A stretch of DNA of 64,000 nt. It comes from Balneolaceae bacterium. Lineage in GTDB: Bacteria; Bacteroidota; Rhodothermia; Balneolales; Balneolaceae. This document shows, piece after piece, positions 1,262-7,562 of this stretch. Below the pieces are notes generated by a model, which did not search any database, was not told the DNA's origin, and worked only from the letters and a program-made list of their open reading frames with translations. The stretch lies in the NCBI GenBank assembly GCA_007693745.1, contig REDA01000039.1, positions 186,001 to 250,000 of the forward strand. Reading direction: 5' to 3'. Each line of letters starts with the position of its first letter. Position 1 is the stretch's first letter. The position numbers and the translations under genes were made by a program.

Positions 1262-2959
1262 ATGTCTCTGCTGAAAACAATTAAACAGAGTGATACAATA
1301 CGGTGGTTTTTTTTCGGTATCGCAATTGCAGCCGTTTTATCACTCACAGTTCTAAATATCTACTCTCTGCATGCACTCAGAGAATCTACCATCGAATCCG
1401 CAAAGGAAAACAGAAAGCTGCAGCTTGAAGAATACACCAGCAGAATCAGTTACAATTTTTACCAGCCATTTCGGGATATCAGAAATTTTGATATGGCTGA
1501 TCTCAACCGGAGCTGGCAAACTGAGAAAAGGTTTCCGCTTCATTTCAAGCAGGTGCTTGAAGATGCAATCGGAGATTCTCTCTATTCAGAAATATACTTT
1601 ATTCCTCAGCAGGAAAACGGGTGTCAGAAACCTGAATACCCCATATATAAATTTTCCACTTTTACAGGCCAGTTCAATCCCGTGTATGAACATCCCAAAT
1701 CAGTCTGTGACGGAGTTGGGATTTCCTTGTCTGGCCTCAATACAATCTCACTCGATGAATACCGGTTTAACAACCGGCTCGATTTTGATGCTCACAGATC
1801 CATGACTTCTGCTCTGATTAACCTCGAGGATAAAGATGTAGTCGGTCATATGAATTTCCAGATAAACAGGGATTATTTGCTGAACCGGATTATGAAGCCG
1901 GCTCTTGACGCGAAATTCGGAAGCCCTGAAAGTTCGGGGATGATCGTCTGGATCCGTGACTGGATGCAGGATGAAATTTTGCTGAGCAACAGTTCAGAAG
2001 TTCCTTACAACCGGGAAATTGTGGATATACGTCAGCGTTTTCCCGGCCTCATGGATAATTGGGTTTTGCACGCCTCATTTGTTGAATCACCGGCAGTCGC
2101 CGCAACACATGCCTCCTTTATCAGGAGTCTCGTTGTGCTTGGTTCAGCTGTATTTGTTCTGATAGGTGCCCTGATCTTTATTTTTATCAATGCTCAAAAA
2201 GAACGGGAGTTTGCTGAACGCCAGGCTGGCTTTTTGGCAAACGTTACCCATGAGCTGAAGACTCCGCTTGCCGTAATGCAGGCTGCCGGTGAAAACATAT
2301 CAGATGGTCGCGTAACCGATGGGAAGAGATTGAAAAGCTATGGAATACATATTTACGAAGAAGCGATCAGACTTCGAAAAATGATTGATAAATTGCTGGA
2401 TGTAGCAAAAGTTGATTCCGGTCAGACCATGGTGAACCAGGCTCCACACCATCTGAATGAGCTGGTTCTGAATTATATAAAAGACCACAACGATTTCATC
2501 ACCAACAATGGATTTCAAATCCGGATTCAATCCGATGATGCAATACCTCTTGCGATGGTTGATTCAGATCAGATTGAGACCATTTTGAATAATCTGATTG
2601 AAAACAGTATTAAATATTGCAGAACAGATAAAGAGATTTATATCAGTATCTTTAAAAAAGGAAAAACTGTGGGCTTCAAAGTTGCCGATATGGGACTGGG
2701 TATTCCAAAGAAAGCGATCAGGAACATTTTCAATAAATTCTACAGAGTGGAAAACTCCATGACCGCAAAAACGAAGGGACACGGTCTCGGTCTTTCCATT
2801 GTGAAAAATCTTGTCGAACTGAACGGCGGCAAGATAGAAGTGGAAAGCGAAGTGGGGGTTGGGTCAGAGTTCACGATTACATTCAATGCTTTAATGCAAC
2901 AGTCTTATATTGAGAAGAACAGAGACGAAGAAATTACTCAAACAAAGGAATATGCTTAA
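1262..2959 (+). CDS. Membrane sensor histidine kinase
   Basis: Two-component sensor kinase, 565 residues. Transmembrane helices lie near residues 14-36 and 287-309, enclosing a periplasmic sensor region of about 250 residues that I do not recognise. No HAMP domain is evident. The cytoplasmic part has the HisKA box with phospho-acceptor H330 (NVTHELKTPL), the N box (NNLIENSIKY, 443-452), G1 box DMGLG (476-480) and G2 box GHGLGL (507-512), so it should be an active kinase. The start ATG at 1262 is chosen because the first helix follows directly. Its last 8 bases overlap the start of the response regulator, so the pair is co-transcribed and translationally coupled. The signal is unknown. Confidence 0.95.
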   Translation: MSLLKTIKQSDTIRWFFFGIAIAAVLSLTVLNIYSLHALRESTIESAKENRKLQLEEYTSRISYNFYQPFRDIRNFDMADLNRSWQTEKRFPLHFKQVLEDAIGDSLYSEIYFIPQQENGCQKPEYPIYKFSTFTGQFNPVYEHPKSVCDGVGISLSGLNTISLDEYRFNNRLDFDAHRSMTSALINLEDKDVVGHMNFQINRDYLLNRIMKPALDAKFGSPESSGMIVWIRDWMQDEILLSNSSEVPYNREIVDIRQRFPGLMDNWVLHASFVESPAVAATHASFIRSLVVLGSAVFVLIGALIFIFINAQKEREFAERQAGFLANVTHELKTPLAVMQAAGENISDGRVTDGKRLKSYGIHIYEEAIRLRKMIDKLLDVAKVDSGQTMVNQAPHHLNELVLNYIKDHNDFITNNGFQIRIQSDDAIPLAMVDSDQIETILNNLIENSIKYCRTDKEIYISIFKKGKTVGFKVADMGLGIPKKAIRNIFNKFYRVENSMTAKTKGHGLGLSIVKNLVELNGGKIEVESEVGVGSEFTITFNALMQQSYIEKNRDEEITQTKEYA

Positions 2960-3656
2960 CAAGGAAAAAAAAATATTGATAGTTGAAGACGAACCGAGCC
3001 TTGTTTTTACTCTTCGGGATACCCTTGAAGCAGAGCACTATTCTGTATCCGTCGTATCTGATGGTTCTGAAGTTATGGCACAGATAGAACGGGAGGAGCC
3101 GGATCTCATGATTTTGGATCTGATGCTTCCCAATAAAAGCGGATATGACATTTGCAGTGAGATCAGGGAACAGAAATATACATTCCCTATCATTATGCTC
3201 ACCGCACGGGATCAGGAAATTGACAAAGTAACAGGACTCAACATCGGAGCAGACGACTACATCACGAAACCCTTCGGAGTGAAAGAGCTTCTGGCCCGTA
3301 TTAAAGCCCGTCTCAGGCGAGCCAACGCCTACTCTAAAACAGGCCCGGCAGAGATTCTGAAACTTGGCAGTGTAAAAATTGTTCTGAATGAATCAAGGGT
3401 GTACAAACCGGAGAATGTAACTGTGGAACTTTCGACAAGGGAAGTTGAAATTATCGAATATCTTCTCTCCCATGCGAACTCTCCAATCTCCAGAGATGAT
3501 CTTTTGGAGAAGGTATGGAGATATGAATACAGCACCAACACACGTACAGTAGATGTACACATTTCAAAACTCAGAGCCAAAGTAGAGATGAATCCGGACG
3601 ACCCTAAATATCTGGTCACTCTTCACGGAGTGGGATACATGCTTAAGCTCAATTAA
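2952..3656 (+). CDS. OmpR/PhoB-type response regulator
   Basis: DNA-binding response regulator, 234 residues, partner of the preceding kinase. The receiver domain holds the acidic pocket (VEDEP near residue 12), phospho-acceptor D56 in ILDLMLP, the conserved threonine in IMLTARD and the lysine in TKPFG. The C-terminal winged helix contains the family motif STNTRTVDVHISKLRAK. The frame stays open upstream to 2910, but ATG 2952 is preferred: it has AAAGGAA just upstream and starts directly before the first receiver strand (KKILIVEDEP). It overlaps the kinase stop by 8 bases. Target genes cannot be read from the sequence. Confidence 0.95.
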   Translation: MLNKEKKILIVEDEPSLVFTLRDTLEAEHYSVSVVSDGSEVMAQIEREEPDLMILDLMLPNKSGYDICSEIREQKYTFPIIMLTARDQEIDKVTGLNIGADDYITKPFGVKELLARIKARLRRANAYSKTGPAEILKLGSVKIVLNESRVYKPENVTVELSTREVEIIEYLLSHANSPISRDDLLEKVWRYEYSTNTRTVDVHISKLRAKVEMNPDDPKYLVTLHGVGYMLKLN

Positions 3657-3664
3657 AACTTTTT

Positions 3665-4207
3665 TCAGTTCTGATTAAGCTTTCTGACAAACCCAGGAAA
3701 TCCCCGGAGCTGTCCCAAAAGAAGCTTTTGAAGTGACTCATTTTTTAAACCTGAATTCATATCAAAGTTGTCGTTAACTCTCTGGATGAACATCCTTTCC
3801 GGATAGATATATGCCTTTCTGTACTTCAGAAGCTGCTCAAATTGTTCCACGGATCTGAGAGCTCCAAAATTTCCTGCAGCTTCCCCAATCAAACTGACAG
3901 GCTTGTGGCTGAACGACTGAGGGAATGGGAGGTAATCATAAAATAGTTTCAGAATTCCGGGAAAACCGCCATTATACTCCGGAATCACAAACAGATATCC
4001 GTCAGCTTCCAAAAAAGCCTGATTAAAGGAATTTACAGAATCAATCTCCTGACCATACTTTCCACCCTTCACGTCTTCAAGCGGATAATCTTCAAGAGAG
4101 AATACAGAAACAGCTGCATCCTCTTTTAACACTTCTGAGGCATATCTGCTTACTTTTTTTGCGTTTGAACCTGGTCTGTCAGTAGCTGATAAAATATGAA
4201 TTCTCAT
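3665..4207 (-). CDS. NADPH-dependent FMN reductase family protein
   Basis: Flavodoxin-fold oxidoreductase of the NADPH-dependent FMN reductase family (SsuE/ArsH/chromate reductase-like), 180 residues and cytosolic. The N-terminal strand and phosphate-binding loop (ILSATDRPGSNAKK, 5-18) and the flavin loop PEYNGGFPGILK (76-87) are the family signatures; GEAAGNFG near 110 is the second flavin contact. It is convergent with the response regulator, whose stop is only 8 bp away, and no terminator separates them. Its own upstream region is the AT-rich gene-poor patch at 4208-4587. The family reduces flavins, quinones or metal ions; the substrate here cannot be set from sequence. Confidence 0.85.
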   Translation of the reverse strand: MRIHILSATDRPGSNAKKVSRYASEVLKEDAAVSVFSLEDYPLEDVKGGKYGQEIDSVNSFNQAFLEADGYLFVIPEYNGGFPGILKLFYDYLPFPQSFSHKPVSLIGEAAGNFGALRSVEQFEQLLKYRKAYIYPERMFIQRVNDNFDMNSGLKNESLQKLLLGQLRGFPGFVRKLNQN

Positions 4208-4383
4208 GAGTAATAATCGGAATTTGATAATATTATGATGAATCGAAGTGAAAGGAAATAGTCTCAGAATTCTCTAACCCGGCCTTTCCCTGCATACTTA
4301 CGGGTTTTCTCACGCCATATATAACAGAAACAAAAGAAACTTCATTCAATAGATAACAAGCTATTTAAATATTTTTTTTAAAT

Positions 4384-4395
4384 AAAAGCGCTTTT
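4384..4395. promoter_or_regulatory. CG-centred palindrome AAAAGCGCTTTT, possible LacI-family operator
   Basis: A perfect 12-bp palindrome in an AT-rich intergenic region, 53 bp upstream of the predicted small-RNA promoter. The same core (AGCGCT) recurs at 15404-15409 and 15473-15480, and a related site, TTGGAAACGCTTTCAA, lies at 15287-15302. CG-centred palindromes of this kind are typical of LacI/GalR-family operators. No regulator gene of that family is in the window, so the assignment is inference only. Confidence 0.3.
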
Positions 4396-4448
4396 CCAAT
4401 CATTACAACTTATTAATCAATGTATTTTATGATTTTTACTTAAATTAA

Positions 4449-4480
4449 TTTGAAAATTATTAAAAAAGCTTCTATCATTG
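4449..4480 (+). promoter_or_regulatory. Predicted promoter, Bacteroidota-type (TTTG-N20-TATCATTG)
   Basis: TTTG at 4449-4452 and TATCATTG at 4473-4480 are 20 bp apart and match the Bacteroidota consensus TTTG / TAnnTTTG with one mismatch. There is no ORF downstream on this strand before the terminator at 4553, so it would drive a short non-coding transcript starting near 4487. Confidence 0.4.
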
Positions 4481-4486
4481 TCTAAG

Positions 4487-4590
4487 AAATTAATGCAGGT
4501 TATACACCAAGAACTCATGTTATGGTAGACATCGAGCAATAGCTCCAATTATGAATGCCCGGAACTGAACCTTCCGGGCATTCTTTTTTA
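4487..4590 (+). ncRNA. Candidate small RNA of about 100 nt between the FMN reductase and rarA genes
   Basis: A short + strand unit with a predicted promoter just upstream, no credible ORF, and an intrinsic terminator at its end. The stretch can fold: GTCTA (4480-4484) can pair with TAGAC (4526-4530), GAGC-AATA-GCTC forms a small hairpin near 4533-4544, and the 12-bp terminator stem follows. It runs head-on into rarA, whose stop codon overlaps the terminator's T-tract. I do not recognise an RNA family (not tmRNA, RNase P or SRP RNA). The boundaries are inferred; the terminator is the strongest part. Confidence 0.35.
4553..4590 (+). terminator. Strong intrinsic terminator, + strand
   Basis: A perfect 12-bp stem, GAATGCCCGGAA / TTCCGGGCATTC, with loop CTGAACC, followed by six T on the + strand (4584-4589). 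The other strand has no U-tract after the hairpin (ATAATTG follows), so the orientation is +. No + strand ORF lies upstream within 890 bp, which is what points to a small RNA. The hairpin could also mark the 3' end of rarA mRNA. Confidence 0.75.
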
Positions 4591-5943
4591 GTTATTTTTT
4601 TTCTTTTTAATCTCTGCAATTCGCTTTTTAAGTATTGCCTCTCTTCCTTCCGAACCGGCTTCATACCACTGCATATTGTGCAATTTTTCGGGCAGATAGC
4701 GCTGATCTACCCAGTTACCGGGAAAATCATGCGGGTACTGATAACCTTCTGAGGCATTATCGCGACCCAGATATTCTGATTCAATCTTACTGGCGGTTTT
4801 GTCTCTGAGATATGCGGGTACATCATCCACTCCGTTCTTTATTATATGTTCCTGCACTTTAAAAAGTGCCTTCGTGCTGTTACTTTTGGCGCAGAGAGCA
4901 AGAAAGATTGAGCAATGAGCCAAAAAATAGAATCCTTCCGGCATCCCGGTTTTGAGAAAAGCTTCATGAGCAGAATTGACCACGGTTATCGCATACGGAT
5001 CAGCCATACCCACATCCTCGGAAGCAAAGATCAGCATACGTCTGAAAATAAAGGCCGGATCTTCTCCCCCTTCGAGCATGGCCATCATCCAGTAGAGTGA
5101 AGCATCCACATCCGAGCCCCGCATTGACTTTATGAATGCCGATGCATAGTGATAATGTTCATCTCCCGTTCCGTCATATCTCACATTCCGCTTCTGAATC
5201 GACTGTTTTGCTACCTCGATACTTATATGAATTTCACCATTCTGATTTCTGGGAGTTGTAAGCGCCGCTACCTCCAGTGCATTCAATGCATTGCGTACAT
5301 CACCTCCGGCATACTCAGCAAGGTGCTCTTTCGCCTCAGTGGCCAGTTTGATATTGAGATATCCCAGCCCTTTTTCACTGTCAGTTAACGCATCATCCAG
5401 CACTTCAGACAGATCCTCACGGGAAAGAGAGTGAAGTTCAAATATCTGACATCGTGACAATAACGGACTCACCAGTGAATAAAAAGGGTTCTCTGTTGTG
5501 GCACCGATCAATGTCAGTATTCCGGATTCGAGATGAGGCAGCAGTGCATCCTGCTGTGATCTGTTCCAACGGTGTATTTCATCAATGAAGAGAATGGTTC
5601 CGGTTCCCGATGCTTTCTTGCGGTACTCCGCCCTGGCGACTACCGCCCGCAGCTCCTTTAACCCGTCAAGCACGGCATTAATCACCTCAAATACAGCCTC
5701 CGTCTCCTGTGAGATCACATGAGCCAGGGTTGTTTTACCGGAGCTGGGAGGACCATGCAGGATCATTGAGCCAATTACACCGCTTATAATCATCCGCTGA
5801 AGAAGTTTTCCTTCGCCAACCAGATGCGACTGACCTTTGAACTCATTCAGAGATTGAGGTCTCATCCTCGTAGCCAGTGGCTGTCGAAAATCACCACTCC
5901 TCACTTTTCCAGACTCCTTATCTTTGTTCTCAAACAGATCCAT
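4588..5943 (-). CDS. rarA: Replication-associated recombination protein A (RarA/MgsA), AAA+ ATPase
   Basis: Clamp-loader-like AAA+ ATPase of the RarA/MgsA/WRNIP1 family, acting at stalled replication forks. Of 451 residues, 1-30 form the N-terminal tail with the family motif PLATRMRPQSLNEFKGQ; Walker A is GPPSSGKTT (64-72), Walker B ILFIDEIH (117-124), sensor 1 GATTENP (147-153) and the arginine-finger region LLSRCQ (161-166). The C-terminal tetramerisation half is complete (SEDVGMADP, YPHDFPG.W). The usual GPPGTGKTT loop is GPPSSGKTT here. It is third in a minus-strand operon after the acidic unknown and the carboxylase (65-bp gap). Its last codons form the lysine-rich tail KKKKNN. Confidence 0.95.
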   Translation of the reverse strand: MDLFENKDKESGKVRSGDFRQPLATRMRPQSLNEFKGQSHLVGEGKLLQRMIISGVIGSMILHGPPSSGKTTLAHVISQETEAVFEVINAVLDGLKELRAVVARAEYRKKASGTGTILFIDEIHRWNRSQQDALLPHLESGILTLIGATTENPFYSLVSPLLSRCQIFELHSLSREDLSEVLDDALTDSEKGLGYLNIKLATEAKEHLAEYAGGDVRNALNALEVAALTTPRNQNGEIHISIEVAKQSIQKRNVRYDGTGDEHYHYASAFIKSMRGSDVDASLYWMMAMLEGGEDPAFIFRRMLIFASEDVGMADPYAITVVNSAHEAFLKTGMPEGFYFLAHCSIFLALCAKSNSTKALFKVQEHIIKNGVDDVPAYLRDKTASKIESEYLGRDNASEGYQYPHDFPGNWVDQRYLPEKLHNMQWYEAGSEGREAILKKRIAEIKKKKNN

Positions 5944-6008
5944 TCTTACCTACTTTTTCAAGAGAGTTCGTTTCGGCAGAAAGCGGCCTCAAAAATCACA
6001 ACTGCCTG

Positions 6009-7562
6009 CTATAGCGGAAGATTATCATGTTTTTTCCTCGGTATCTGTTCAGCTTTATGCTCTGTCATCTCCATGGCGTGAATGAGCCTGCTCCTGGTTT
6101 CTGAGGGAAGTATCACATCGTCAATGAACCCTCTGGCTGCCGCCCTGTAGGGATGGGCAAATTCCCTGTTGAATTTCTCCTCCAGTTCCAGCTGTTTACC
6201 ATCCGGATCCTGAGCCGCCATAATCTCTTTACGGAATATAATTTCCACGGCACCCTTGGTACCCATAACTGCAATTTCCGCAGTAGGCCATGCGATGTTG
6301 TAATCTGCGCGAATATGCTTGGAATTCATAACATCATAGGCACCACCATACGCCTTTCGGATGATAACCGTCATTTTTGGAACCGTAGCTTCGCAAAATG
6401 CATACAACAGTTTTGCCCCGTGCTTGATGATCCCTCCCCACTCCTGGTCGGTGCCCGGCAAAAATCCGGGAACATCTTCAAAAACGATGAGCGGGATGTT
6501 GAACGCATCACAAAAACGCACAAATCTGGCTCCTTTAAGCGATGCATCGATATCCAGAACCCCCGCCAGAGACAACGGCTGATTAGCAACCACACCAACC
6601 ACTTTCCCATCCAGCCGGGCAAATCCCACAACAATATTACCGGCATACAGCTCATGAACTTCATAAAATGAAGTATCATCCACCACACCTTCGATCACAT
6701 CCCTGATGTCGTATGGTTTATTTGCATTCCCAGGTACTATTGTATCCAGCTTTCCTGCTTTTTCACGATCAGGCTCACGGGAAGCCTCCAAAGGAGGCTT
6801 TTCTTCACAGTTTTGAGGGAGATAGGCCATCAGTGAGCGTATCCGACTCAGGCACACCACATCATTTTCCACTGTAAAATGTGCAACTCCTGATCTGGTG
6901 GCATGTGTATGGGCACCACCCAGTTCCTCGGATGTAACTTCCTCATGAGTCACTGTCTTTACAACATTGGGACCGGTGACAAACATGTAGCTAGTGTTGT
7001 TTACCATGTATATAAAATCTGTCAATGCCGGACTATAAACAGCACCACCGGCACAAGGGCCCATCACGGCGGAAATCTGGGGAATGACACCCGAAGCCAT
7101 TGAGTTTCTCCAGAAAACCTCAGCATAGCCGCCCAGCGAACTTACACCCTCCTGTATCCGCGCACCTCCTGAGTCATTCAGCCCGATGACGGGAACGCCG
7201 TTTTTGAGAGCCAGATCCATAATCTTACAGATCTTTTCAGCATGAGTTTCCGAAAGAGAACCTCCGAAAACAGTAAAATCCTGGCTGTAGAGATATACCG
7301 GTCTGCCATGAATCCTCGCAGAACCTGTAATGACACCATCACCCGGTATCTGCTGTTTTTCCAGTCCGAAATCATAACTCCGGTGCGTTACAAACGCATC
7401 TATTTCAACAAAACTTTTTTTATCTGCCAGTAGCTCAATCCGCTCTCTGGCGGTCAGTTTCCCCTTTTCATGCTGTTTTGTTATTCTCTCAGGCCCGCCA
7501 CCCATTCTTGATTCTTCTCTTCTCCTGAGCAGTTCTTTCTGCTTCTCGTTCATATCGGTCAT
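6009..7562 (-). CDS. pccB: Acyl-CoA carboxylase, carboxyltransferase (beta) subunit, propionyl-CoA carboxylase-like
   Basis: Biotin-dependent carboxyltransferase subunit, 517 residues, that moves CO2 from carboxybiotin to an acyl-CoA, most often propionyl-CoA (giving methylmalonyl-CoA). Both crotonase-fold halves are present. The N-half has the oxyanion loop [11 protein letters not shown] (139-149) and [16 protein letters not shown]; the C-half has [23 protein letters not shown] and [11 protein letters not shown]. Start ATG 7562 is used; a second in-frame ATG lies three codons in. The biotin carboxylase/carrier alpha subunit is not in the window. It lies 17 bp downstream of the acidic unknown and 65 bp upstream of rarA on the same strand. 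The acyl-CoA preference is inferred from similarity. Confidence 0.93.

Follow-up and report, generated by a model that had tools for sequence, protein, structure and literature searches.

A putative small-RNA gene of Rhodohalobacter with a near-invariant core and a predicted cre-like operator

The window (the whole stretch of 64,000 nucleotides that was analysed) contains what looks like a previously undescribed small-RNA gene of Rhodohalobacter, which is kept nearly letter for letter between species. The comparison of genomes makes it almost certain that the locus is a real noncoding sRNA gene. The explanation that best covers all the observations is an sRNA of about 105 nt under LacI/CcpA-like control, which would act in trans without Hfq, and a probability of roughly 0.6 is assigned to it. 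Within this explanation, the transcription of the locus, its regulator and all downstream steps are what we infer from the DNA.

Results

The genus of the window is Rhodohalobacter, placed by NCBI in Balneolaceae, Balneolota, and the window's own genome is referred to as G000, in which it lies on contig C83. The predicted gene is composed of the following elements:

4449-4452, + strand: -33 element TTTG, recognised by motif and in register in 24 of the 25 genus rows of the alignment
4473-4480, + strand: -7 element TATCATTG, with one mismatch to TAnnTTTG
4485-4589, + strand: predicted small RNA of about 105 nt, its start placed from the -7 box and its end from the terminator
4553-4589, + strand: intrinsic terminator, a 12-bp stem with six T, recognised by motif, with 10 of 12 pairs changed on both sides

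The Bacteroidota-type promoter (TTTG-N20-TATCATTG) and the perfect 12-bp + strand terminator with six T, from which the sequence-only reading had proposed a separate small RNA gene, were both found where that reading had placed them. The spacer between TTTG and TATCATTG amounts to 20 nt; in the excerpt of PMC9723704, the Flavobacterium consensus TAnnTTTG sits at -12 to -5. The terminator stem (4553-4583) consists of 12 perfect pairs and a 7-nt loop and is followed by the T run at 4584-4589. The combination of a perfect 12-bp stem, six T and such a promoter occurs once in the window and in none of 100 dinucleotide shuffles, with criteria that were set after the site had been seen. The fold z-score is -4.06 and none of 200 shuffles was equally stable, the stability coming mostly from the terminator. 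A loose scan of positions 2500-7000 returned 9 promoter-like sites against 7.9 expected and 1 terminator-like site against 4.7 expected. In view of these counts, a promoter or terminator motif alone proves nothing, and the weight comes from conservation. The nearest gene on the + strand, a response regulator, ends at 3656, with a - strand gene in between; its distance to the stem is 896 bp, for which the sequence-only reading had given 890 bp. Judged by motif and conservation, the locus thus has its own promoter and its own terminator in an intergenic region, as an sRNA gene should.

The conservation is concentrated in one element:

4509-4549, + strand: conserved RNA core AAGAACTCATGTTATGGTAGACATCGAGCAATAGCTCCAAT, in which the 25 genus sequences agree at 33 of 34 consecutive columns

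A DNA search found this core in 25 of the 28 genus genomes (E <= 4.1e-13). The three misses are no evidence of loss, because the 3' end of rarA is not assembled there: G001 and G012 have no rarA match, and in G016 rarA leaves the contig before its 3' end. The mean pairwise identity of the genus sequences reaches 99.3% over the 36-nt core (4516-4551), and the ungapped flanks of 35 positions are 30.8% identical on the upstream side and 35% on the downstream side; the RarA proteins are 66-72% identical to that of the window. The leader between promoter and core is variable in length and sequence, and the promoter elements stay in register across the aligned homologous loci. The covariance model R1 was built from the 25 genus sequences, which it recovers by construction. 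Its independent yield, and the outcome of the covariance search in relatives that had been suggested as a check, is the RNA in four genomes of three other Balneolaceae genera (G097, G103, G099 and G100). Two further genomes from one of those genera gave no R1 match; the 3' end of rarA lies 55 bases from the contig end in G101, and G102 has no rarA match either. A loss of the terminator in relatives that keep the end of rarA, named by the sequence-only reading as counter-evidence, was not what the genomes contained: core and terminator are conserved together in 29 genomes, namely 25 from the 28 of the genus and 4 from other genera. The conserved core, the promoter in register and the compensatory changes of the terminator support the interpretation of the locus as a separate small RNA gene.

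Besides the 29 strong R1 genomes there were 19 weak ones in one search and 20 in another (E 4e-5 to 0.1), none of which was counted; the one inspected (L063) has 15 mismatches in 30. A possible second copy in the window's own genome (contig C18, E 0.011), adjoining a lipoate-ligase-type gene, differs at 11 of 30 core positions and was dropped as a chance match. A gapped core pattern of 21 fixed bases gave 23 stretches in the GTDB genome collection, in which records very near the window may be omitted; by label these comprise 2 Rhodohalobacter species, 17 Balneolaceae, 3 Bacteroidetes and 1 Chitinophagaceae. The viral contigs searched for the core gave no match.

Within the RNA, three further elements were distinguished:

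4517-4532, + strand: hairpin 1, AUGU-UAUGGUAG-ACAU, 100% of cells paired
4534-4545, + strand: hairpin 2, GAGC-AAUA-GCUC, 99.1% of cells paired, with one mismatch (L061) and no covariation
4543-4548, + strand: CUCCAA element, common to an alternative RNA of other genera, with one A to T change in L062

One pair of hairpin 1 varies with the pairing kept (A-U in 25 sequences, G-U in 3, G-C in 1), and both core hairpins are plausible predictions. The core loop may resemble a D-loop. In the terminator helix, 98.8% of the cells pair over the 29 sequences, versus at most 43.7% when the partners are slid, and the covariation score was reached by none of 500 shuffles; the comparison demonstrates that this terminator, Rho-independent by prediction, is kept by compensatory change. 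Rfam 15 recognised one tRNA only in the whole window and nothing above the gathering threshold on the RNA, where the best model was Thr_leader (25.2 vs 55). The permissive matches to the Thr and His leaders (E 0.014 and 0.095) were rejected, being far below gathering and with a pairing that rests on the terminator.

Two short frames (MLW and MVDIEQ) begin inside the core, and the sole change within the genus (L017) is synonymous in the second of them; both points would suit a core that is a tiny coding sequence. Over the 29 rows, however, the frame ATG GTA GAC ATC GAG CAA TAG contains, apart from this one synonymous change, two non-synonymous ones (L061 and L062), and substitutions outside the genus give a different peptide (I to T, Q to K) or replace the start codon of MLW by GTG. 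The remaining third codon positions are frozen. The small-peptide reading was dropped on these frozen positions and non-synonymous changes, and a coding core is exceedingly improbable. Of the 31 loci listed, L009 alone has an ORF of at least 60 aa (72 aa) that overlaps the core, and the changes are not codon-like, which agrees with a noncoding sRNA. Since Rfam offers no match and there is no conserved reading frame, the RNA is probably encoded by a stand-alone noncoding sRNA gene.

The gene called rarA lies on the - strand and ends at 4588, and the T run therefore overlaps its stop codon. Its name fits the Pfam domain MgsA_C, and none of the NCBIfam models listed for the protein reached its cut-off. 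The usual gene order is histidine kinase, OmpR-type response regulator, FMN reductase on the opposite strand, the RNA, and rarA on the opposite strand. Most loci show synteny of the RNA with the histidine kinase and the response regulator (1262-3656 in the window); for each of these two proteins, the scores to the 25 NCBIfam models listed all stayed below the cut-off. The FMN reductase gene adjoins the RNA in 23 of 25 genus loci and in all four loci of other genera, the exceptions being L015, which is without the gene, and L017, which is cut off. Downstream of the RNA, 27 of the 29 loci continue with a gene of the opposite strand. In L057/L086, genes with KAP NTPase, Fic and HTH domains sit between the RNA and rarA, and no rarA is within reach in L060 and the longer L084. 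The KAP NTPase, Fic and HTH genes, which span L086:2952-6733 in one other genus, may represent defence or mobile cargo. The earlier description of the RNA as facing rarA is true as geometry and goes no further: the RNA is kept in L057 and L060 without an adjacent rarA, and is for that reason regarded as independent of rarA.

The position of the stem at the rarA stop codon, together with the fact that convergent genes often share terminators, could suggest that the stem merely terminates rarA or a + strand gene located upstream. On the - strand, however, the stem is followed by ATAATTGG and by no T run, on which ground the rarA terminator reading was rejected, and T run, core, promoter and operator are all conserved on the + strand. 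The retention of the RNA in L057 and L060, and the nearest + strand gene being about 900 bp upstream beyond a gene of the other strand, also count against such a terminator, the probability of which is negligible. Attenuators and riboswitches, which are cis-acting leaders of downstream genes, would likewise appear as a structured RNA followed by a terminator, and a downstream + strand gene does occur in L057 and L060 and, for the other RNA described below, in L209. The leader reading was dropped on the opposite orientation of the downstream genes; moreover, the + strand genes that follow the RNA in L057 and in L060 do not resemble one another in sequence. A leader function is accordingly very improbable.

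Upstream of the promoter, a further element was recognised:

4384-4395, no strand assigned: cre-like CG-centred palindrome AAAAGCGCTTTT, predicted from conservation and recurrence to be a LacI-family (CcpA-like) operator

A 12-bp CG-centred palindrome 53 bp upstream had been noticed as a hint at regulation. It is located as described, ending 53 bp before TTTG, and its centre precedes the inferred start by about 95 bp. The hint gains support from a near-fixed spacing and from the recurrence of the palindrome upstream of nutrient genes. Of the 29 homologous loci, 25 contain AAAAGCGCTTTT unchanged, 2 deviate from it at one position and 2 at two positions. The distance to TTTG, as measured by a script, is 50-55 bp in 26 of 29 loci; in L008, L012 and L016 the script settled on a different TTTG, and the expected copy is aligned in register. 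Nine genomes searched with the pattern WAAAAGCGCTTTT yielded 73 strand matches at 51 distinct sites (3-9 per genome), and the reversed control gave 8 matches. The neighbours of 48 of these 51 sites were examined, the other three being the sRNA loci themselves, and 10 of the 48 lie inside an ORF according to a naive caller.

Several gene families recur at these sites. Receptor genes which we take to be SusC-like are found at 9, with the boxes of L105 and L148 in or at another gene; the one member scanned has a carboxypeptidase-regulatory domain. The gene paaA occurs at 6 sites, one of them in the window's own genome, and the box abuts its ATG, so that the regulator would repress there. The ammonium transporter gene (amtB) is found at 4, with the box starting exactly 64 nt before a TTGaca-like element in 4 of 4; in the sRNA loci the box mostly starts 65 nt before TTTG. 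Other recurrent neighbours are rhodanese at 3 sites and two families of unnamed secreted proteins, one at 4 sites and the other at 3. The box sites probably form a LacI-type nutrient regulon in Rhodohalobacter, as far as their distribution indicates. The loci in which AAAAGCGCTTTT precedes SusC-like, ammonium transporter, rhodanese and paaA genes are L087-L116 and L147-L172; in G023 and G018 (L151 and L152), one box adjoins a tandem array of the 7-base unit GTCGCAG.

Two other assignments of the box were considered. Ownership by the divergent FMN reductase gene was rejected: L015 is without such a gene and still contains the box, with two mismatches, and the spacing from box to reductase varies more than that from box to sRNA promoter. 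Control by the adjacent two-component system was considered for its synteny. OmpR-type sites are direct repeats, and the perfect palindrome is unlike them.

The excerpt of PMC3463425 gives TGAAAGCGCTTTCA as the strong cre consensus of B. subtilis, with G2, C7 and G8 very conserved, and states that a cre upstream of -35 goes with activation, lev being an exception, and that a downstream cre blocks transcription. The box agrees with this consensus at 11 of 14 positions in the window and at 12 of 14 in L005 and L062, the genus box being without G2. The operator, 53 bp upstream of the -33 element, is placed upstream of -35 as in activated cre genes, and both cre placements, upstream of the promoter and at the gene start, occur among the box sites.

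LacI-type HTH proteins were present in 15 of the 17 genomes tested and in all 13 among those that carry either RNA. A single LacI orthologue, represented by L276:1864-2883 and belonging to the LacI-family regulators with a CcpA-like DNA-binding domain, is shared by 7 of 7 genomes whose LacI loci were fetched. It adjoins purC, as scanned in G000, and, as scanned in G023, a squalene/phytoene-synthase gene. Among solved structures, CcpA chains come closest to it (E 1e-39), and PurR follows at a short distance. In NCBIfam, the orthologue remained below the cut-offs of all 19 models listed, including that of ccpA (154.1 vs 442.35 bits) and that of the best, RbsR (195 of 382), and thus it does not pass as a CcpA orthologue by that cut-off. 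Therefore, the claim made here is that the regulator works like CcpA, not that it is CcpA. In G000, an exact box is located 223 bp upstream of a third LacI gene. G029 and G070 are without LacI and leave little or no room for an RNA between reductase and rarA; in G107 and G114 the RNA is absent from this interval, yet LacI proteins are present. The link between regulator, operator and RNA is good but circumstantial, and control of the RNA by a LacI/CcpA-like regulator appears reasonably probable from these genomic associations.

The 3' flanks of rarA were also taken from 18 genomes without the first RNA (type A), and the relevant stretch of nine of them was inspected. No core-like motif is contained in any of the 18 flanks. 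In four of the nine (G032, G087, G090 and G085), a box-like site and a promoter are followed by a different RNA at the same place and in the same orientation. A DNA search of 128 genomes of the order found this type B RNA in 14 genomes of the Balneolaceae genera g4, g6, g22 and g24, and 11 of its 26 predicted pairs are changed on both sides. It is convergent to rarA and at most 1.4 kb from its 3' end in 13 of 14 genomes, and 10.7 kb from it in G030. The model R3, built from the 14 sequences and recovering them by construction, revealed no further strong type B genome; weak matches (E 2.7e-4 to 9.4e-4) in G013, G063 and G071 were not counted, that in the type A genome G013 being on another contig. 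Among the 128 genomes, the 29 strong R1 genomes and the 14 R3 genomes do not overlap. Four type B loci compared with Rfam gave no convincing match, the best being a microRNA model (E 0.018).

Like the first RNA, the type B RNA faces rarA, has the same type of operator and promoter and carries CUCCAA before its terminator, and its loop GUUGGUUAGGC resembles GUUAUGGUAGAC of the type A core. Its box agrees with TGAAAGCGCTTTCA at 11 of 14 positions in L222 and 13 of 14 in L233. Unlike in the first RNA, a long covarying stem encloses the loop, and the terminator differs. With filters off, R3 scores at the place and strand of the RNA in all 10 type A loci compared, the best with E 0.003 and three with E above 0.3, along with an off-place match at E 0.01 in L057. 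The model R2 does so in all 10 type B loci compared, with E between 0.0025 and 0.74, along with a wrong-strand match at E 0.012. Much of these cross-scores is carried by CUCCAA and the terminator. With reciprocal model scores this weak, homology of the two RNAs is not claimed.

Discussion

In the preferred mechanism, a LacI-family regulator with a CcpA-like DNA-binding domain would bind the cre-like palindrome some 95 bp upstream and activate the RNA, the level of which would therefore follow the carbon or nutrient state. Activation is proposed because a cre upstream of -35 generally activates in B. subtilis, although exceptions are known. The RNA would then act in trans, without Hfq, as a noncoding arm of the LacI/CcpA-like regulon, and its loop UAUGGUAG and/or the C-rich CUCCAA may base-pair with several mRNAs. 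A search for Hfq that was positive in 5 of 14 control genomes gave no match in any of the 13 genomes tested. Classical blocking of the Shine-Dalgarno (SD) site by the RNA is unlikely, because the genes of the window hardly use such sites: GGAG is located within -20 to -4 of 1 of the 37 window ORFs of at least 200 aa, and TTGGAG in none.

The mode of action is the part of this mechanism for which an alternative has to be weighed. CsrB and 6S RNA act by binding proteins, as titrating or scaffold RNAs, and the RNA described here may bind a protein in such a way rather than pair with mRNAs. Stems and loops alike are frozen in the core, beyond the usual needs of seed pairing, SD targets are scarce and no Hfq was found, all of which favours protein binding. 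The target searches point in the same direction. With the copies of the RNA itself counted, two 11-nt antisense core probes gave, in nine genomes, 31 matches vs 54 in the reversed control and 14 vs 24. Energies of duplexes with the starts of 29 box-linked genes ranged from z -1.1 to +2.6, and those with neighbouring genes had means of -0.16 to +0.20, individual minima going down to -3.5 at rarA; searches of both kinds would miss short seeds. On the other hand, titrating RNAs usually repeat their binding site and there is one core copy per RNA; the protein reading is so far without a partner, and the two RNA families share short elements only. Protein binding is therefore rated as unlikely, and base-pairing, itself a tentative proposal, is placed slightly ahead of it.

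The RNA family is new and its kind is familiar; it does not constitute a new kind of system. The closest case by logic is RsaI of Staphylococcus aureus, described in the excerpt of PMC9266662 as a CcpA-repressed stand-alone sRNA that blocks the SD of two targets. Both are stand-alone sRNAs with a tie to the carbon state and a LacI/CcpA-type regulator, which is predicted in the present case. As described there, RsaI is repressed by CcpA, whereas the operator here is far upstream, in an activating position; moreover, RsaI blocks the SD and the window genes hardly use one, a distinction drawn from the description. Close by group is GibS of Bacteroides thetaiotaomicron, which the excerpt of PMC7366714 presents as a metabolic sRNA with a TTTG / TAnnTTTG promoter in a species with no obvious Hfq or ProQ homologue. 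Compared by this description, the two have in common the metabolic role proposed here, the Bacteroidota host and the promoter type, and the cre-like operator belongs to the Rhodohalobacter locus. Rfp18 of Flavobacterium psychrophilum, also close by group, is in the excerpt of PMC9723704 an sRNA widely conserved in its genus, with base-pairing predicted via one stem-loop. It resembles the present RNA in this wide conservation; it belongs to another group and comes from transcript mapping, whereas the Rhodohalobacter RNA is predicted from sequence. In the library searched, no paper on a Rhodohalobacter small RNA or a Balneolaceae noncoding RNA was found. The near-invariant, genus-wide core and the recognisable operator make the action of an sRNA without detectable Hfq and with few SD sites testable.

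The type B RNA extends this picture beyond the genus, as the body of the RNA differs between the two types while the control region is kept. It is conceivable, though somewhat doubtful, that a regulatory address stays fixed and its RNA is exchanged: one cre-like operator and promoter facing rarA would drive either sRNA family across Balneolaceae. The families were never found together, and apart from a GUU-UGGUUAG-like loop, CUCCAA and a terminator they have little in common. Either a single RNA would have changed past recognition around these elements, or one RNA would have displaced the other under a common switch; the result would be an Hfq-less noncoding arm of a CcpA-like regulon outside Firmicutes. 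The type B RNA thus offers a natural experiment in which an sRNA changes under fixed control. In the type B loci L207, L209, L211, L220 and L221-L234, the covarying stem is accompanied by an invariant GUUGGUUAGG loop.
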